Origin: a bacterium
Lineage (GTDB): Bacteria > Sumerlaeota > Sumerlaeia > SLMS01 > JAHLLQ01
Direction of reading: 5' to 3'
NCBI GenBank assembly: GCA_020444065.1
Contig: JAHLLQ010000006.1
Coordinates: forward strand, 186,001-250,000
DNA: 64,000 nt
The notes below the pieces were generated by a model that had not been told where the DNA came from, did not search any database, and was given only the letters and a program-made list of their open reading frames with translations. Below, in pieces: positions 18,523 through 41,168 of the stretch. A program made the translations under genes and the position numbers. Positions within the stretch are counted from its first letter, which is position 1. Each line of letters starts with the position of its first letter.

Positions 18523-18714
18523 ATGGGCGAAGCCATCGTTGTATTATTCTTTCTCCTCCCAGCCGCCCTCTTCGCGCGGGCAGGCGAACGCAGTTTCAAG
18601 CACGACGGCATCTGGCATCGAATCTTCGGCGCACTGGCGTATGCTGCTTGTCTGGGATGCATCGGAATGTTTGTGCTGTACCTGGGTTCGATGCACTATG
18701 GATGGTTTGACTAG
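18523..18714 (+). CDS. Small two-helix membrane protein
   Basis: This 63-aa frame begins MGEAIVVLFFLLPAALFARAG and ends with a second hydrophobic helix (AYAACLGCIGMFVLYLGSM), with a short basic loop (ERSFKHDGIWHR) between them. An in-frame ATG at 18493 would add ten residues. The upstream GGAAGGACC is a modest RBS for 18523. The stop overlaps queG on the other strand by 4 bp. No family is recognised. The strong hydrophobic periodicity argues for a real gene. Confidence 0.5.
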   Translation: MGEAIVVLFFLLPAALFARAGERSFKHDGIWHRIFGALAYAACLGCIGMFVLYLGSMHYGWFD

Positions 18715-19784
18715 CAAGCATCCCGCGGCGAGTCGAGCAGCCTCTCAAATGCCTGCCGCGCGGTTTCGCGCAGCCAATCCGGTTGCGACGCGTCTTCGGC
18801 GATGCGTTGGAGTTCGCGCGCTTCGGCTTCGCCGCCGCGTTCGCTGGCGACGATGGCGGCGTTCCGGATGAGCGATTCGTGACCCGCGCGCCTCAATGGA
18901 TTGCCCCACATCGCATCGTCCAGTTTGTCTTCATCCAACTGTAGCATTTCAACGAGCGACCATCCCGCCGGAGCCTTGCGCGGGGCGAATGCGTCTTCTG
19001 CCGCGACGCGTGCGCGCTTGCGATTGTATGGGCACACGTCCTGGCAGATATCGCAGCCGAAAACCCAGCCCGCAAAATGCGACCAGAGCTCTTCGTCGAT
19101 CGGGCCGGAATGCTCAATCGTCAAGTAGGACAGGCACCTTCGCGCATCGAATCGCCACGGCGCCTCGATCGCTCCGGTTGGGCATGCATCGATGCAAAGG
19201 CGGCAATCTCCGCAGCCGCATGAAGATTCAAGCGGCGGCGTTGGCTCCAACTCGACCGTGGACAGCACGACCGCCAGAAAGAAGTACGATCCCTGTTCGG
19301 GATTGATCAGCAGCGTGTGCTTGCCGATGAAGCCGAGGCCGGCACGTTGGGCCCATTGGCGCTCCATCACCGGGCCATAGTCGACATAGGCGCGCGACTG
19401 TGTCCCCGCGGGGCCATGGTGATCGATGAAGCGACAGAGCTTCTTGAGTCGCTTCTCGAAGACGCGATGATAGTCGCGGCCGCGTGCATAGCGCGAAATC
19501 TTCCCAACCGGCGGCGCATCGCGCCGTTCGATGTCGTCAGGTTGCTGGTAGTTGATTCCGAGTACAATGACGCTGCGACACTCGGGCAGCACGCGCTCCG
19601 GGTCAGCACGACGCTCCGGATCGCGCGCCAGCCACTCCATCGAACCATGGCGATCTTCGTCGAGAAACTCGCGCAGCTCGGCCAACTCGCTTTCCAACGC
19701 TTCGGCACGCGCAATGCCGAACCAGTCGAAACCCAACTGGCGCACACGCTCTTCGATGAGGCTTTGAAGGGAGGCGTCGGTCAT
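18711..19784 (-). CDS. queG: Epoxyqueuosine reductase
   Basis: QueG carries out the last step of queuosine synthesis in tRNA, reducing epoxyqueuosine to queuosine with cobalamin and two [4Fe-4S] clusters. The 357-aa length is normal. The iron-sulfur ligands appear as CGCGDCRLCIDACPTGAI and the second CDICQDVCPYN. Upstream are family stretches such as VIVLGINYQ and YARGRDYH, and GLGFIGKHTLLINPEQGSYFFLA in the cobalamin-binding half. Its start lies inside the stop of the neighbouring HExxH gene (ATGA at 19784). The B12 requirement is notable given the cobalamin riboswitch at 37.4 kb. Confidence 0.95.
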   Translation of the reverse strand: MTDASLQSLIEERVRQLGFDWFGIARAEALESELAELREFLDEDRHGSMEWLARDPERRADPERVLPECRSVIVLGINYQQPDDIERRDAPPVGKISRYARGRDYHRVFEKRLKKLCRFIDHHGPAGTQSRAYVDYGPVMERQWAQRAGLGFIGKHTLLINPEQGSYFFLAVVLSTVELEPTPPLESSCGCGDCRLCIDACPTGAIEAPWRFDARRCLSYLTIEHSGPIDEELWSHFAGWVFGCDICQDVCPYNRKRARVAAEDAFAPRKAPAGWSLVEMLQLDEDKLDDAMWGNPLRRAGHESLIRNAAIVASERGGEAEARELQRIAEDASQPDWLRETARQAFERLLDSPRDAC

Positions 19785-34728: not shown

Positions 34729-35910
34729 TCAGCGCATCAGAATCCCGGTTGGTGAAGGCTGCGGCGCGGGATTCTCGTAGATTGCCAGTAAGCCCACATG
34801 GTCGCTGACGCGCGGCTGGTAGGTATTCGCATCGGCGTTGCGATTGAACGTGCGAATAACGGATTGCGGACTCGGAGCACTCGCTACGTCGTGCGCCTTC
34901 AGGAACTGATAATCGATCCGGCTGCCCGGCGGATCGCCGATGGTTCCGTTTGTATTGCCAACGCTCGCTCCCACGTCCACGAATCCCGCTGCGAGGACGC
35001 GCTGAATCTGCGGGTCGGTTGTGCTGGCGTTGAAGTCGCCGCCGATCAGCGTTGCATCGACTCCTTCTGTCAGATCTCCATCGAGAAATTCAATCAGCTT
35101 GCGAACCTCCTCATCGCCTCCCGCGGACGGCCATGATGTGTGCGCCGTGCAGAAGCGCATGTGAACGCCTTTCACCTCCGACTCAACGGCGAGCGCATTG
35201 CGCCGCAGCGCTCCCCCACTGAGTTCGTACTCGTTCACATTTGAAAGCGGCGTGCGTGATAGAATGCCCAACCCCTCACGATAGACGTCGAAGCCGATGT
35301 GCGCCATCCGCCACTCGTAGTGCCACGTGTCGCCGGTCAGTTGCTCGAGGTGATCCTTGATAACGCCGCCGGCATTCGGACGCGAAGAGTCGGAAACGTG
35401 CTCTCCGACTTCCTGCAGGATCGCGACGTCGATGTTCATCGCATCGAATGCAAAGGCGATCTGTTCGAGTTTCAGAAGGGCGTCTTCCTCCTGGTAAGTG
35501 TGCAAGTTGAGCGATGCGATGCGAATCACGTTGTCTCCTCCCAGGTCGCGGCCACCGATTCCGAATGCTGAATTCGTTCCGGAAAAGCCATCATCCTCAC
35601 CCATTGGATTGGCTGGATCGGGAATCCAGGATCCATCGACGATGTACTTATAGAAATGTGCGCCTTCGGCCAACGGCGCAGTGTCCACGGTCCAGTCTTC
35701 ACCGTTCTGAACCATATCGAGCGGAGAGGTGCTCCAGTCCGTAAAATCGCCTGCAACCTTCACGGACGAAGCAGTCGCATTCTGGTAGGCGAAGTGAACC
35801 GAGTTGTCCGGCTGAACGTTGTAACCGGGTTCGGAGAGTGCAGGAACTGAAAAGGAAACCAGGAGTACGAGAGCGCACAGCCACCTGGCAATAAGACGAA
35901 AATTGGCCAT
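34729..35910 (-). CDS. Secreted CBM48 plus endonuclease/exonuclease/phosphatase protein
   Basis: After a signal peptide (WLCALVLLVSFSVPALS), the 393-aa protein has a CBM48-like glycogen-binding module (VKVAGDFTDWS, AHFYKYIVDGSWIPDP). An EEP-fold hydrolase follows: VIRIASLNLHT, ILQEVGEH with the metal-binding Glu, TAHTSWPS, GGDFNAST, and RVSDHVGLLA with the final Asp-His. EEP enzymes cleave phosphodiesters in nucleic acids, lipids or inositol phosphates. The fusion to a glucan-binding module is unusual. The ATG at 35910 has GGGAGG upstream. The gene nearly touches the convergent double-SIS gene. Confidence 0.85.
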   Translation of the reverse strand: MANFRLIARWLCALVLLVSFSVPALSEPGYNVQPDNSVHFAYQNATASSVKVAGDFTDWSTSPLDMVQNGEDWTVDTAPLAEGAHFYKYIVDGSWIPDPANPMGEDDGFSGTNSAFGIGGRDLGGDNVIRIASLNLHTYQEEDALLKLEQIAFAFDAMNIDVAILQEVGEHVSDSSRPNAGGVIKDHLEQLTGDTWHYEWRMAHIGFDVYREGLGILSRTPLSNVNEYELSGGALRRNALAVESEVKGVHMRFCTAHTSWPSAGGDEEVRKLIEFLDGDLTEGVDATLIGGDFNASTTDPQIQRVLAAGFVDVGASVGNTNGTIGDPPGSRIDYQFLKAHDVASAPSPQSVIRTFNRNADANTYQPRVSDHVGLLAIYENPAPQPSPTGILMR

Positions 35911-36033: not shown

Positions 36034-37272
36034 CTACCGGGAGAACTCGCGCCAGTCGGGAACGGCGCTGAAGTCGCTTGGCGTGATAACGTTCACACCG
36101 TTTTCCGAATCGATCACAACCAGCCGTTTGGAACCGGCACGCGCTATGCCGGCCTCGAAGGTGTTCGCGCTCGAATCGAAGGCCACTCCCTGGACGAACT
36201 GGAAGAACTGCTTCGGGAAGTCCGCGAATGGCGTCACAACTCCAGTCGCGGGATCGACAGCCACGACCTGATATGCTTCGGGGAAGAAGCTGTTAGTGCT
36301 GACGTAGAGCAGACCGGAGGCCGCGTCGAAGGTGACGTCGCTGATCGGTGCGAGCGCATCGGTAATCAGAACGGTCTCGCCCGCATCCAGCGCGTCGCCA
36401 TCGGCGTTTATATCGACCGCCTTGTAGAGCGTGCCGCTGGTGAACGCGTCGTTGCTATCGCCGAAGTACACCGTGTCAGTGTTGCGATCGACAGCCACAC
36501 CACTGCCGTAGTCGAGACCGGCGAAGAAGACGGATTGGCTGGTCGCGCCATCGGCGATGCGAAGGACTTCCCCATTTCCACCGCCATCAGTTGTGACGAC
36601 GTAGAGGTTGCCGGCGGAGTCGAAGTCGCCCTGCGCGCCAGTGAAGTTCCCGGCCGTCGTCGCAATCGGCGTTGCGTAAAGGGCTGCTTCGGGGGAGCCG
36701 CTGATGTCGCGGAAGTCGTTGTCCACGGTGATATCCGTGAGCTCGATCACTGCGTCGCCGATCACTCCGCTCAGACCGGATGTCGTGCCGAAGTCGTTGT
36801 CGATAACCAGCGCCGTTCCGTCGGCCCGCATCGAAATCGATGGCGAGCCGAAGTGATTGTCCAGCCGATCGTTTCCATCGCTGAGATCACCTGCGCTGCT
36901 GGTCGTGCCGGTCGCGATGGGGGTCCAGGTTGCGTTGAATGGATCGCCAACGGGAGACAGTTCGAGTCGGTAGATGTCGATGTCGCGGAAATACCCCCAG
37001 CCGGTCGTGACGCTGACGAAGAATGAGTTCGGATCGTTCGGATCGGCGGAGACGGCTCCGGCCGCAGCGCCGACTGGCGTGCTGATGCTGTCGACAATGT
37101 AGCCGGTCGGTAAGCCGACGACGACAGAGCGCGAAACGTGCTCTGTCTGCTTGATTTTCGCGGCCTCCGCCTGCTGGTCGCGAATCGATTCCAGCGGCGA
37201 GGCGTTGAGTGTGGCGGCAGCGAGAATCGCCGCGCCGAGAACGGCGGTCGTGCGTGGAGTGGTTGGCATCAT
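36034..37272 (-). CDS. Secreted beta-propeller-like protein under a cobalamin riboswitch
   Basis: The 412-aa protein has a signal peptide (TTAVLGAAILAAATLNA) and a chain of repeated beta blades with phrases such as GDFDSAGNLYVVTTDGG, GSGVAVDRNTDTVYFGDSN, ISDVTFDAASGLLYVSTN and VQGVAFDSSANTFEAGI. These resemble NHL/SMP-30-type six-bladed propellers. No catalytic residues or sorting signal are evident. The ATG at 37272 is preceded by GGAGGG with a 4-base spacer. The transcript leader carries a cobalamin aptamer (37565-37394), so the gene should respond to B12. A role in binding or handling a corrinoid outside the cytoplasm is a hypothesis from that position only. Confidence 0.75.
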   Translation of the reverse strand: MMPTTPRTTAVLGAAILAAATLNASPLESIRDQQAEAAKIKQTEHVSRSVVVGLPTGYIVDSISTPVGAAAGAVSADPNDPNSFFVSVTTGWGYFRDIDIYRLELSPVGDPFNATWTPIATGTTSSAGDLSDGNDRLDNHFGSPSISMRADGTALVIDNDFGTTSGLSGVIGDAVIELTDITVDNDFRDISGSPEAALYATPIATTAGNFTGAQGDFDSAGNLYVVTTDGGGNGEVLRIADGATSQSVFFAGLDYGSGVAVDRNTDTVYFGDSNDAFTSGTLYKAVDINADGDALDAGETVLITDALAPISDVTFDAASGLLYVSTNSFFPEAYQVVAVDPATGVVTPFADFPKQFFQFVQGVAFDSSANTFEAGIARAGSKRLVVIDSENGVNVITPSDFSAVPDWREFSR

Positions 37273-37393
37273 GTTGCCCTCCAGAGATTGGATTGGCGAC
37301 AGGACACGGATGCTACGCGATGTCGATGAGTCAGAGGGAGAACTTGCCATTCGCCTCGTCTTCTCAGTCCACGGAGAAGTGCGCAAGCATGCG

Positions 37394-37565
37394 CCGAGGA
37401 GGGTCTTCCGGCTTCCGGATCATCCTACTTGCCGCGCCTTCCCGGGCCTTGTGGCCCAGTGGCGAACGTGCGGCGTTCGTTCCCGGTTACGGCGGCGGGT
37501 CCGCGACGGATTCTCACCGTCTTCCCGGCCTGCGAGCCTTTGCGCTCTGCGGGCCGTCTCCTCGG
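37394..37565 (-). promoter_or_regulatory. Cobalamin (B12) riboswitch aptamer
   Basis: Read on the minus strand, the conserved elements appear in the right order: GGTGAGAATCC (37518-37508), the GACCCGCC-GCCGTAACCGGGA block (37501-37481), GCCACTG (37463-37457), GGGAAGGC (37443-37436), GGATGATCC, and the B12-box form AAGCCGGAAGACC (37414-37402). CCGAGGAG (37565-37558) and CTCCTCGG (37401-37394) form a perfect 8-bp closing P1 stem. A CTTCTC/GAGAAG hairpin follows at 37379-37360, and the next gene starts at 37272. The CCCTCC at 37404-37399 is exactly complementary to the gene's GGAGGG ribosome binding site, so translation control is likely. The rest of 37273-37703 holds no gene. Confidence 0.9.
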
Positions 37566-37648
37566 AGCCCGATAACCTTGTCGGGTGCGTGATGCTCCTG
37601 GGGCGCCTCGGGGTCAATCGCGATTCCGGCGATTGACGAAAAGGAAAT

Positions 37649-37703: not shown

Positions 37704-39773
37704 TTAGTACAGAGCCCAATCCATGACACTCGAGGGCGGTGTGAGGTCATGAGCACCCAGATCACCGAAGGAGTTGAAACCTGCGTCGGTCCATTCGATT
37801 GTTGGGTCGAAGGTGTCGCTGCTGTCTGTGTCGCCTTGATAGACATCCGAGTTGCGGATCAGTGTATGATCGGCGGTCAGACCGCCCCATCCGGTCGCGC
37901 CGGGATCGTTCCCCACTTGGCCGAATGAATCCACCACCCCCGCGCGGCGCGTCGCATTGTTGTAGAGTTCAATCGCATCGTTGCCGTTGAAGCTCAGCGC
38001 GTTATCCGTCAGGTCTGCGACGGCGAGAACCGGGGCATCGGCGCTCGGATGCGCCACAACGTACGCAATGCCGCTGTCCAGCGTTCCGGTCAGGTTAACC
38101 GTGTTCGAAACCGATGTACCCCCGTTGGCGTAGATCAGGATGCTGTAAGTGCTCAGGTCGATCGTTGTCCCCGTTCCGTTGTATATCTCGATAGCCTTGT
38201 TATAACTGGTGCCTTCAACATACTCGCTCAGAATCAGGTCCGTCGGGGTACCGGGCACGGGTGTCGGAGTTGGCGTCGGAGTGTCCGAAGGAGTCGGCGT
38301 GGGCGTATCGGTCGGCGTCGGAGTCGGCGTGTCGGTCGGAGTTGCCGTTGGTGCCGTGAACGTATGCGATCCAATATAGCTGAACGTGTCCGATGCATAG
38401 CCATCCCATTCAGTGGCGGGATCGAATGCATCGCTGCTGTCGGCGTCACCCTGCGTAATGGTCGACTTGCGCACGAGGGTGTGGTTTTCGGTCGTTACGG
38501 GCTCGGTACCCCAGAAACCGGAAGCAGGTGCCTCTCCAACGCGTCCGATCGAGTCGATGACGGTGGTACCATTCTTCACAAGTTCGATGGCATCGTCGCC
38601 ATTAAAGTTAACATTGCCGCTCGTCTGGTCGGTCTCGGCCAGGATCGCTCCGTCTGCCGATGGATTCGCCATGACAAACACATCCCCAGACGCAACACTG
38701 CCCGTCAGTGAGATTGTGCTGTTCGGAGTTGCGGCGCCATTCGCGTAGATAAGCACTGAGTAACTCGTCAAATCGATTGTGCCAGCAGTAGGATTGTAGA
38801 TTTCAAGAGCCTTATTGAAGCTGGTGCCCTCGATGTACTCGCTGAAGAACAGATCGCTTGCCGGGCCCGGCGTCGGTGACGGAGTGGGTGTGGGTGACGG
38901 CGTCGGCGTTGCGCCGGAGCCAAAGAGCGTTTCAACCCATTCGGGATGATCAATGAATGGGTTTCGGTTGCCCTGGATGGCGTAAACCGCATCGTTGCGC
39001 AACATCTCATTCGGGTCGGCACCCGGCAAATCGCTGTTGTGCCATTGAACTAACGTTGTCAGCTTGCCCATGTAGCCATGCAGGCCATCGTCGATCGCAA
39101 CGATCAGAGCAGTATTGTCGGTCAATTCCAGGTCGGGCTCGTTTGTCGCATCGCCTTCATAGCGAACGTCCATGTAGAACAATCCGCGGGCGACATCGCC
39201 CTTCTTGCCATCCCAAACCTGCCATGTCGTGCTGCCCGACTCGTAATTGAAGAGGGCCGGATCTGTGTTGTCGACGCTCCAAGGGGTACACGAGGAGAGG
39301 CAATCGTCGTAGTACTCATTGCTTCGCGCGTTGTTATACTGTTCTACCGAAGCACGCAAGTGGTGGAGATCGGTGTAGGGTGCCCAGGAATCATGATCGA
39401 AACCAAAAGACTTCGGCCAGGTGTGTTCGCGGTTCCACAGGCTCGGATCCGCCCCTCCGGTCGCGTGGGCCGACTTGGCCAGCGTGCGATTGGCGTACAC
39501 GCAAAGCACATTCGAGGAATTTCCGGGATCTTCGTCCACGGCCTCGAGGCCATCCCATACGTCAAAAGCGGTGCTGGTGTAAGGCAGCTTCGTCGTGCCG
39601 CTACTGATGATCGCGTGCAGCGTCGAACGGAGCGACGCGGCGCTGCTGGCATCGACGGTGTCGTAGTAGCCCGGGGGGGCGTCTGCCGTCGCAATCCCCG
39701 CGACAAGCAGGAGCGCGCTCGATGCCACCAGGAGGGGGCGCCGGCGCGGGAAAATCTTCGAATGTTTCTTCAT
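37704..39773 (-). CDS. Secreted endonuclease I-like protein with two lamin-tail domains
   Basis: The 689-aa protein has a signal peptide (LLVASSALLLVAGIATA) followed by an endonuclease I-type His-Me finger domain at about 35-285, with core NREHTWPKSFG and DLHHLRAS. Thr/Pro-rich linkers then separate two lamin-tail (LTD) domains at about 307-465 and 510-680. Each starts with LFFSEYIEGTS or LILSEYVEGTS and contains NKALEIYN or NKAIEIYN and GDDAIELV or GNDAIELY. The two LTDs are clear duplicates. Such proteins degrade extracellular DNA, and LTDs probably attach them to surfaces or DNA. No type IX sorting domain is seen at the C-terminus. Confidence 0.9.
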   Translation of the reverse strand: MKKHSKIFPRRRPLLVASSALLLVAGIATADAPPGYYDTVDASSAASLRSTLHAIISSGTTKLPYTSTAFDVWDGLEAVDEDPGNSSNVLCVYANRTLAKSAHATGGADPSLWNREHTWPKSFGFDHDSWAPYTDLHHLRASVEQYNNARSNEYYDDCLSSCTPWSVDNTDPALFNYESGSTTWQVWDGKKGDVARGLFYMDVRYEGDATNEPDLELTDNTALIVAIDDGLHGYMGKLTTLVQWHNSDLPGADPNEMLRNDAVYAIQGNRNPFIDHPEWVETLFGSGATPTPSPTPTPSPTPGPASDLFFSEYIEGTSFNKALEIYNPTAGTIDLTSYSVLIYANGAATPNSTISLTGSVASGDVFVMANPSADGAILAETDQTSGNVNFNGDDAIELVKNGTTVIDSIGRVGEAPASGFWGTEPVTTENHTLVRKSTITQGDADSSDAFDPATEWDGYASDTFSYIGSHTFTAPTATPTDTPTPTPTDTPTPTPSDTPTPTPTPVPGTPTDLILSEYVEGTSYNKAIEIYNGTGTTIDLSTYSILIYANGGTSVSNTVNLTGTLDSGIAYVVAHPSADAPVLAVADLTDNALSFNGNDAIELYNNATRRAGVVDSFGQVGNDPGATGWGGLTADHTLIRNSDVYQGDTDSSDTFDPTIEWTDAGFNSFGDLGAHDLTPPSSVMDWALY

Positions 39774-39920: not shown

Positions 39921-41168
39921 TTAGTAGGAATCCCATTGCTCGACGTCTGCATAGCCGGTTGTGGCTCGTAACTCTACTGAATTCAATTCTCCGAAGACAT
40001 GCCAGCCGCGCCCATCGGCGTCATCCCCTTCGACGTTCACATGGGAATCGATGATCGTGTCGAGTGAGGGCATGACAGCGGGCACGGCAAGCTGTGGATT
40101 CGGATTGATGGCGGTGAGGAACCCCCGGGGAACACCATACTTCTCGACGACCTCGAGGCGCGAATCCTCGTCCAGGGCGGCCTGGCTGTAGTCATGCTTC
40201 CCGTTCTCGATGGTTCCAAGAAGGAAGTCCCACCCGACCTCGACGTTGGGAAACTCCGGGTCGGCGGACAGCAGCCCAGGACGGACAGTCTCTACCGCGG
40301 AGCTGTAGTCGAGCAGGTGCTGGTAGTCGACAATGTCGTCATCCGTTCCGTGGAATACGAAGTAACGCGAAATCCCATTCGGATCCATGGGGACAGTCCG
40401 GAGCGTGCGCTGCGGGGATCGGAGATATCGTTCGGCAGCGCGATAGGCGAGTTCGAAGGTCGGAAGACTGCTGGATGGCTGCAACCAGACGTTGGCGGCC
40501 ACCCATCCCCAAGGATCGTCTTCGCTCTCGTACCCACTGTTTTGTACTTCCGCCGATGTAGTGATGAGGGTAATGGCTGAGTTCACAAATACGCCTGCAA
40601 ACAGTCCCCCATATTCACCGGATGGATCGCCCGATACTCGCGACATTGCCATCATGCAGAGGGCGATCTGCCCACCACCGGAGTTCCCGTACAGGTAAAT
40701 CCGGCGCCGATCGATCTGGGGGTAAAGCGTCAACGTTTCGCCGATAGCACGGTACATATCAATGCTCTGAAACTTGCCCAAGTCGTACGGAGAATTATCC
40801 CGATACCGAGCGGACATGTAGACTACGTCGTAGGTATCTGCGAAGTGCGCCCCATTTGCGTTGGCCAAATCCAGATGCAGGGTTGGCCCAGGGCAAAGGC
40901 ATCCGACTTCGACCAGCAAGCCGGTGGATTCCGTCACCCCCGCCGTAGGCTCTACGATGGCCATCGGAATGTCGGATGTGAACATCTGGTCCGGTGGATC
41001 GGCCATCGGCAGGAGCTGAGTTGTGGCCGTGGCCGCAATGACATCCGCTCGGACGCGCGGGACGATGCCGCTGAATGCGTCGGAGCAATCGGTGGCCGGA
41101 ACTGGCGCTTCGGCCCAAGCGGCCGATGTGAAGCAGACAACCAACACAAGAGCGATGGTGCGGATCAT
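39921..41168 (-). CDS. Secreted alpha/beta hydrolase
   Basis: The 415-aa protein has a signal peptide (IALVLVVCFTSAAWA) and an alpha/beta-hydrolase fold. The nucleophile elbow is YGNSGGGQIAL, the acid is in FHGTDDDIVDYQH, and the catalytic His is probably in ENGKHDYSQ. Position and spacing resemble prolyl-oligopeptidase or feruloyl-esterase-like enzymes, but the substrate is not clear. The ATG at 41168 lies right after a run of nine G on the minus strand (41180-41172) that includes its ribosome binding site. A longer frame to 41291 lacks a signal peptide at its start and is rejected. Confidence 0.8.
   Translation of the reverse strand: MIRTIALVLVVCFTSAAWAEAPVPATDCSDAFSGIVPRVRADVIAATATTQLLPMADPPDQMFTSDIPMAIVEPTAGVTESTGLLVEVGCLCPGPTLHLDLANANGAHFADTYDVVYMSARYRDNSPYDLGKFQSIDMYRAIGETLTLYPQIDRRRIYLYGNSGGGQIALCMMAMSRVSGDPSGEYGGLFAGVFVNSAITLITTSAEVQNSGYESEDDPWGWVAANVWLQPSSSLPTFELAYRAAERYLRSPQRTLRTVPMDPNGISRYFVFHGTDDDIVDYQHLLDYSSAVETVRPGLLSADPEFPNVEVGWDFLLGTIENGKHDYSQAALDEDSRLEVVEKYGVPRGFLTAINPNPQLAVPAVMPSLDTIIDSHVNVEGDDADGRGWHVFGELNSVELRATTGYADVEQWDSY

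Follow-up and report, generated by a model that had tools for sequence, protein, structure and literature searches.

A cobalamin riboswitch and an exported-type beta-propeller in a predicted class-wide B12-uptake regulon of Sumerlaeia

In Bacteroidetes, B12 riboswitches are known to control exported propellers, the BtuG proteins (PMC6143338), and the 2018 study on them reported BtuG homologs in no other phylum (PMC6143338). Bacteroides BtuG1, a propeller with a fused BtuH domain, is likewise encoded in riboswitch-controlled loci (PMC10404256). DUF4465/BtuJ proteins are exported B12-binding jelly-roll proteins, which occur in several phyla and often have propellers, TonB receptors, and ABC importers as neighbours (PMC13398666). 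In this study, we found that a genome of the class Sumerlaeia, in the little-known phylum Sumerlaeota, carries an exported-type propeller gene directly behind a cobalamin riboswitch. The system resembles that of BtuG1-3 of Bacteroides thetaiotaomicron (PMC6143338, PMC10404256) in its exported propeller, its cobalamin riboswitch, its apparently B12-auxotrophic Gram-negative hosts, and the presence of BtuH-type and BtuFCD proteins in the loci. Riboswitch control together with B12 transport genes is common to both, although here the propeller of the analysed genome is linked to the transport genes at the class level, these being in another operon.

The window, by which we mean the whole stretch of 64,000 nucleotides analysed (G000:C6:186001-250000), comes from a genome of 5.2 Mb that is 97% complete. 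In a cmscan search, the cobalamin riboswitch model RF00174 matched positions 37579..37381 of the minus strand over its full length (model 1-189) with 90.3 bits (E 4.8e-21), far above its gathering cut-off of 31.5 bits, and a whole-genome search with RF00174 found the same aptamer again. The arms of the P1 stem, CCGAGGAG (37565-37558, minus) and CTCCTCGG (37401-37394, minus), pair perfectly at 8/8 positions. The propeller gene (36034..37272, minus, ATG start) begins 109 bases past the aptamer, with a Shine-Dalgarno sequence GGAGGG at 37277..37282 (minus). Terminator-like hairpins lie on the minus strand at the end of the propeller transcript (36026-35999) and, as a strong hairpin, at the end of the upstream nuclease/LTD gene (37677-37649). 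Since these hairpins flank the aptamer and the propeller gene and none lies between aptamer and start codon, the two form a unit of one riboswitch and one gene, and the aptamer thus occupies the leader of a putatively co-transcribed gene, as it does in 17/19 relatives. The original prediction, which was made from the DNA letters alone, had claimed a B12 aptamer with a perfect 8-bp P1 stem before a gene that stands alone, and had proposed the covariance search; these claims are confirmed. The leader between aptamer and start codon (37273..37380, minus) contains no terminator-like hairpin, and its 3' part does not fold better than shuffled sequences (z-score -0.21). Because an intrinsic terminator is missing from the leader, control of the propeller gene at the level of translation seems likelier.

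Two neighbouring genes on the minus strand encode putatively exported proteins of other kinds, one (37704-39773) with endonuclease I and two lamin-tail (LTD) domains joined by a Thr/Pro linker, and the other (34729-35910) with an exo/endonuclease/phosphatase domain behind an AMPK/CBM48 glycogen-binding domain. C-termini resembling W-x-x-Y (SSVMDWALY, VEQWDSY, PDWREF) recur on exported-type proteins of unrelated folds and may be a sorting or anchoring signal. Such ends were seen at 36034-37272, 37704-39773, and 39921-41168 of the window (all minus), in a BtuH-like protein at L020:8621-9397, and in alignments A3, A5, and A6. Among the gene calls at the loci of the window genome, they were found on 4/23 secreted-type proteins vs 0/42 others (Fisher p 0.013). 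Genome-wide, the strict pattern (DWxLY followed by TAA or TAG) was not enriched, with 3 matches vs 2 in a reversed control, and W-x-x-Y is therefore not established as a general sorting signal.

The propeller protein has 412 aa, and its N-terminus has a hydrophobic stretch of putative signal-peptide type, after which no lipobox cysteine is found in the sequence. Pfam and NCBIfam contained no family above its cut-off for this protein, SMP-30/gluconolactonase/Drp35 models included, and we keep a simple SMP-30/lactonase reading as a rival to capture. PDB searches with the single sequence and with a profile matched the PknD NHL domain and 'Pizza' propellers, which are designed proteins of the NHL type. 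The AlphaFold2 model, built with 18 homologs (mean pLDDT 78, pTM 0.78), has 24 strands, that is, six blades of four. Thus, the guess of a secreted NHL/SMP-30 propeller was right as to fold, on which PDB profile, AlphaFold2, and Foldseek agree, and a putative signal peptide is also present. In two related genera, homologs consist of two propeller domains in tandem in one chain (L016:2-2029 and L017:2695-4335).

Despite its likeness to BtuG in setting, the window propeller differs from BtuG in several respects. BtuG, as seen in BtuG2, has seven blades, whereas the model has six. BtuG is a surface lipoprotein that acts with BtuB, whereas the window propeller has no lipobox cysteine and is encoded in a genome with no detected plug or barrel domain. 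The propeller family profile retrieved no BtuG entry from the PDB at E <= 1, and BtuG was absent from the 50 best Foldseek matches to the model. Membership in BtuG is therefore ruled out by sequence, blade number, and the missing lipobox and BtuB, and we retain BtuG only as a protein that the propeller may resemble in how it works.

The pairing of riboswitch and propeller was compared across 39 genomes of the class, mostly draft MAGs, a check which had also been proposed at the outset. A profile search found a propeller homolog in 20/39 genomes, and RF00174 lies directly upstream of it in 17/19 assessable ones (G000, G007, G009, G013, G014, G015, G018, G020, G021, G023, G024, G026, G028, G029, G032, G035, and G036), which span at least eight families. 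The two exceptions, both without a riboswitch, are a strong homolog in G010 and a weak match in G001 (E 4e-4); G022 was left out because its contig ends. Beyond the class, a distant propeller homolog (profile 77.9 bits) in a Planctomycetota record (L027) is likewise preceded by RF00174 (76.4 bits), and the same scan found no RF00174 upstream of four other distant homologs.

Cobalamin riboswitches are not confined to these propeller genes; RF00174 is present in 36/39 genomes of the class. When the ORFs downstream of 52 riboswitch sites were scored with one profile per family, 46 sites were found to head operons with at least one exported-type family, among which are propellers of three families, jelly-roll proteins of one, and a pseudopilin. 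The NHL-type propeller occurs in 17 of the riboswitch operons, a BNR-type propeller in 18, a PQQ/BamB-type propeller in 8 (PF13360 E 7.7e-18), a BtuH-like jelly-roll protein in 12, the pseudopilin in 27, and BtuF, BtuC, or BtuD types in 11. The usual gene order is one or more propellers, then a BNR propeller or BtuH-like gene, then the pseudopilin, BtuF, BtuD, and BtuC. The slot just before the pseudopilin is taken by a BNR propeller in 10 operons and by a BtuH-like protein in 11; the two never occur there together and may stand in for each other. At two sites the riboswitch heads other genes: NrdD, the anaerobic ribonucleotide reductase, at L110 (G019:C41; PF13597, E 3e-189), and an ORF with a MetE-looking N-terminus at L124 (G030:C211). 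NrdD and MetE are classical B12-independent isozymes, and a riboswitch before the anaerobic ribonucleotide reductase agrees with the view that these RNAs sense B12.

In the window's own genome this regulon is split. A second riboswitch (C3:172076-172221, 42.3 bits with RF00174) heads an operon for a pseudopilin, a protein with a PduO-type adenosyltransferase at its end (PF01923 E 3e-55), a BtuF-like protein, an ABC ATPase (BtuD), and a FecCD permease (BtuC) whose best NCBIfam matches, below cut-off, are BtuC. The BtuH-like gene of this genome (C1:354623-355396) is unlinked and has no riboswitch. The window propeller gene is thus one detached piece of the class regulon, with the importer in another operon. 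In the B12 operon, L018:8057-9841 encodes a protein of 594 aa in which a PduO-type cobalamin adenosyltransferase follows a methionine-synthase-like N-terminal part (PF01717, sub-threshold).

The jelly-roll family of these operons connects the regulon to known B12 binders. Against 177,635 distinct PDB sequences, its profile ranked first 8blw_B (residues 393-498, E 0.0056), which is BtuG1 of B. thetaiotaomicron and whose matched residues are the fused BtuH part (PMC10404256), and second 7biz_A (E 0.055), which is B12-bound BtuH2 (PMC8941943). For the AlphaFold2 model of the family (pLDDT 82), the best Foldseek match among 350,542 chains was again 8blw_B (E 2.9e-4). The two profile E-values are singly marginal, and weight comes from the agreement of sequence and fold searches on the same known B12 binders, although these results overlap in part, since the Foldseek score draws on sequence as well. 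Judged by sequence and predicted fold together, the family is distantly related to the B12-binding BtuH domain. Unlike BtuH, it has no PKD/Ig-like part, and, whereas BtuG1 fuses propeller and BtuH domain, several Sumerlaeia operons encode them as adjacent separate genes; the BtuH-like gene adjoins the propeller gene in G014, G023, G028, and G032. The family shares with DUF4465/BtuJ the character of an exported-type jelly-roll encoded near propellers and importers, but no member matched Pfam DUF4465.

The pseudopilin also appears to be specific to the regulon. Although each genome of the class has 17-65 pseudopilin-like matches, the operon family gives one full-length match per genome in 35/39 genomes at 180-363 bits, whereas all others score 96 bits or less and align mostly via the N-terminal helix. 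Thus, the operon family, which shares an N-methylation motif and the N-terminal helix with GspG/DUF1559-type pseudopilins, is a separate, full-length, single-copy family. Twenty-seven of its 35 members lie in cobalamin-riboswitch operons. Four more (G013, G022, G012, and G033) have a propeller, BtuH-like, or BtuF gene as neighbour and lie close to a contig end, and those of G008, G016, G020, and G026 show no link. In several operons the single-copy pseudopilin (L018:7374-8060 and class operons, alignment A4) is encoded directly before BtuF.

Sumerlaeia appear to be B12 users without corrin-ring synthesis, and hence auxotrophs, as CbiC was absent from 39/39 genomes and B12-binding domains are present in 39/39. 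The window itself encodes QueG (18711-19784, minus; TIGR00276, 330 bits against a cut-off of 200), as the original prediction had noted. These are outer-membrane bacteria, given that secretins occur in 39/39 genomes and that genes for a lipid A acyltransferase and LptC are found on a contig of a relative. Ordinary porins do not admit a molecule the size of B12, whose known route across the outer membrane is the TonB-dependent BtuB. Like the E. coli-type system of BtuB-TonB and BtuFCD, the Sumerlaeia regulon has BtuF, BtuC, and BtuD types under a cobalamin riboswitch, but no TonB-dependent receptor was detected in most genomes: the plug domain is missing in 35/39 genomes, the barrel in 35/39, and both in 34/39, including the 97% complete window genome. 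Both searches matched in the control genomes of E. coli, Caulobacter, and Bacteroides.

Taken together with the auxotrophy, these results make it likely that the window propeller is an exported corrinoid-capture protein of a class-wide, riboswitch-controlled B12-uptake regulon. The exported proteins of this regulon probably trap the vitamin on the outer side of the inner membrane, in cells which appear not to synthesize it and mostly do not have the usual receptor. According to the original prediction, the gene would encode a B12-responsive exported protein of a new kind, which might bind corrinoids or act in their salvage. A role in acquisition is favoured by the 17/19 linkage and by the BtuH relatives and BtuFCD-type transporters in operons elsewhere, whereas its isolated novelty does not stand, as the gene is part of a class-wide regulon and BtuG is a precedent (PMC6143338). 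In the most likely scenario, sufficient intracellular B12 would let the riboswitch turn off the propeller, and falling B12 would release its translation. Located in the periplasm or on the cell surface, the propeller would then bind corrinoids and pass them to BtuFCD, either directly or via the BtuH-like protein or BNR propeller and the dedicated pseudopilin.

How B12 would cross the outer membrane can be read in two ways, both compatible with the capture role. The exported proteins may serve, as in Bacteroides, as lids or feeders for a receptor in the outer membrane that went undetected by the profiles, so that no new crossing mechanism would be needed. In favour of this, BtuG forms a working complex with BtuB (PMC10404256), divergent barrels can go unrecognized by Pfam models, and the genomes are mostly draft MAGs. 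However, the control genomes were matched by the same searches that found neither domain in 34/39 genomes, and the few receptors detected are never on contigs carrying cobalamin riboswitches, so we regard a missed receptor as possible though doubtful. Alternatively, B12 import may be free of TonB receptors, with propellers and BtuH-like proteins catching B12 and the single-copy, riboswitch-controlled pseudopilin, together with a secretin-based pilus or type II apparatus, moving or presenting it to BtuF. This we offer tentatively and as rather unlikely; we know of no vitamin for which pseudopilus-assisted import is a known route.

A different reading concerns the propeller itself: instead of capturing corrinoids, it could act on them or on other compounds, as an SMP-30/Drp35/paraoxonase-type enzyme of salvage or remodelling. 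The best Foldseek matches to the model, Drp35, strictosidine synthase, paraoxonase, and SMP-30, speak for such an enzyme. However, identity to them is 11-14%, and six-bladed propellers match one another by fold alone. Moreover, the most conserved positions fall in calcium-loop-like segments of the DxNxDGDxxDxGE type and in TxDGxGxGE strands, with no evident metal catalytic tetrad, and unrelated propellers (BNR, PQQ) fill the same slot in other operons, all of which makes an enzyme improbable. That the riboswitch is a relic or incidentally regulates a surface protein, as the solitary position of the gene beside unrelated nucleases might suggest, is very improbable given a pairing kept in 17/19 assessable genomes of at least eight families and a regulon that includes BtuFCD and BtuH-like proteins.

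In summary, the propeller is best regarded as a likely corrinoid-capture protein of a B12-uptake regulon. A literature search, conducted outside subscription journals, found no earlier description of riboswitches or cobalamin in Sumerlaeota, of a pseudopilin under a cobalamin riboswitch or in B12 uptake, or of BtuB-independent uptake. As far as this search goes, what is new is the occurrence in this phylum, together with the propeller families, a pseudopilin specific to the regulon, and the fact that TonB receptors are lacking. Riboswitch-controlled extracytoplasmic B12 capture, as described in Bacteroidetes, would thus be extended to another phylum, one that uses other propellers and, unexpectedly, a pseudopilin. 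Named genes are now available for asking how Gram-negative cells lacking the receptor acquire B12, and since one of them encodes a dedicated pseudopilin, a route independent of TonB can be put to the test.
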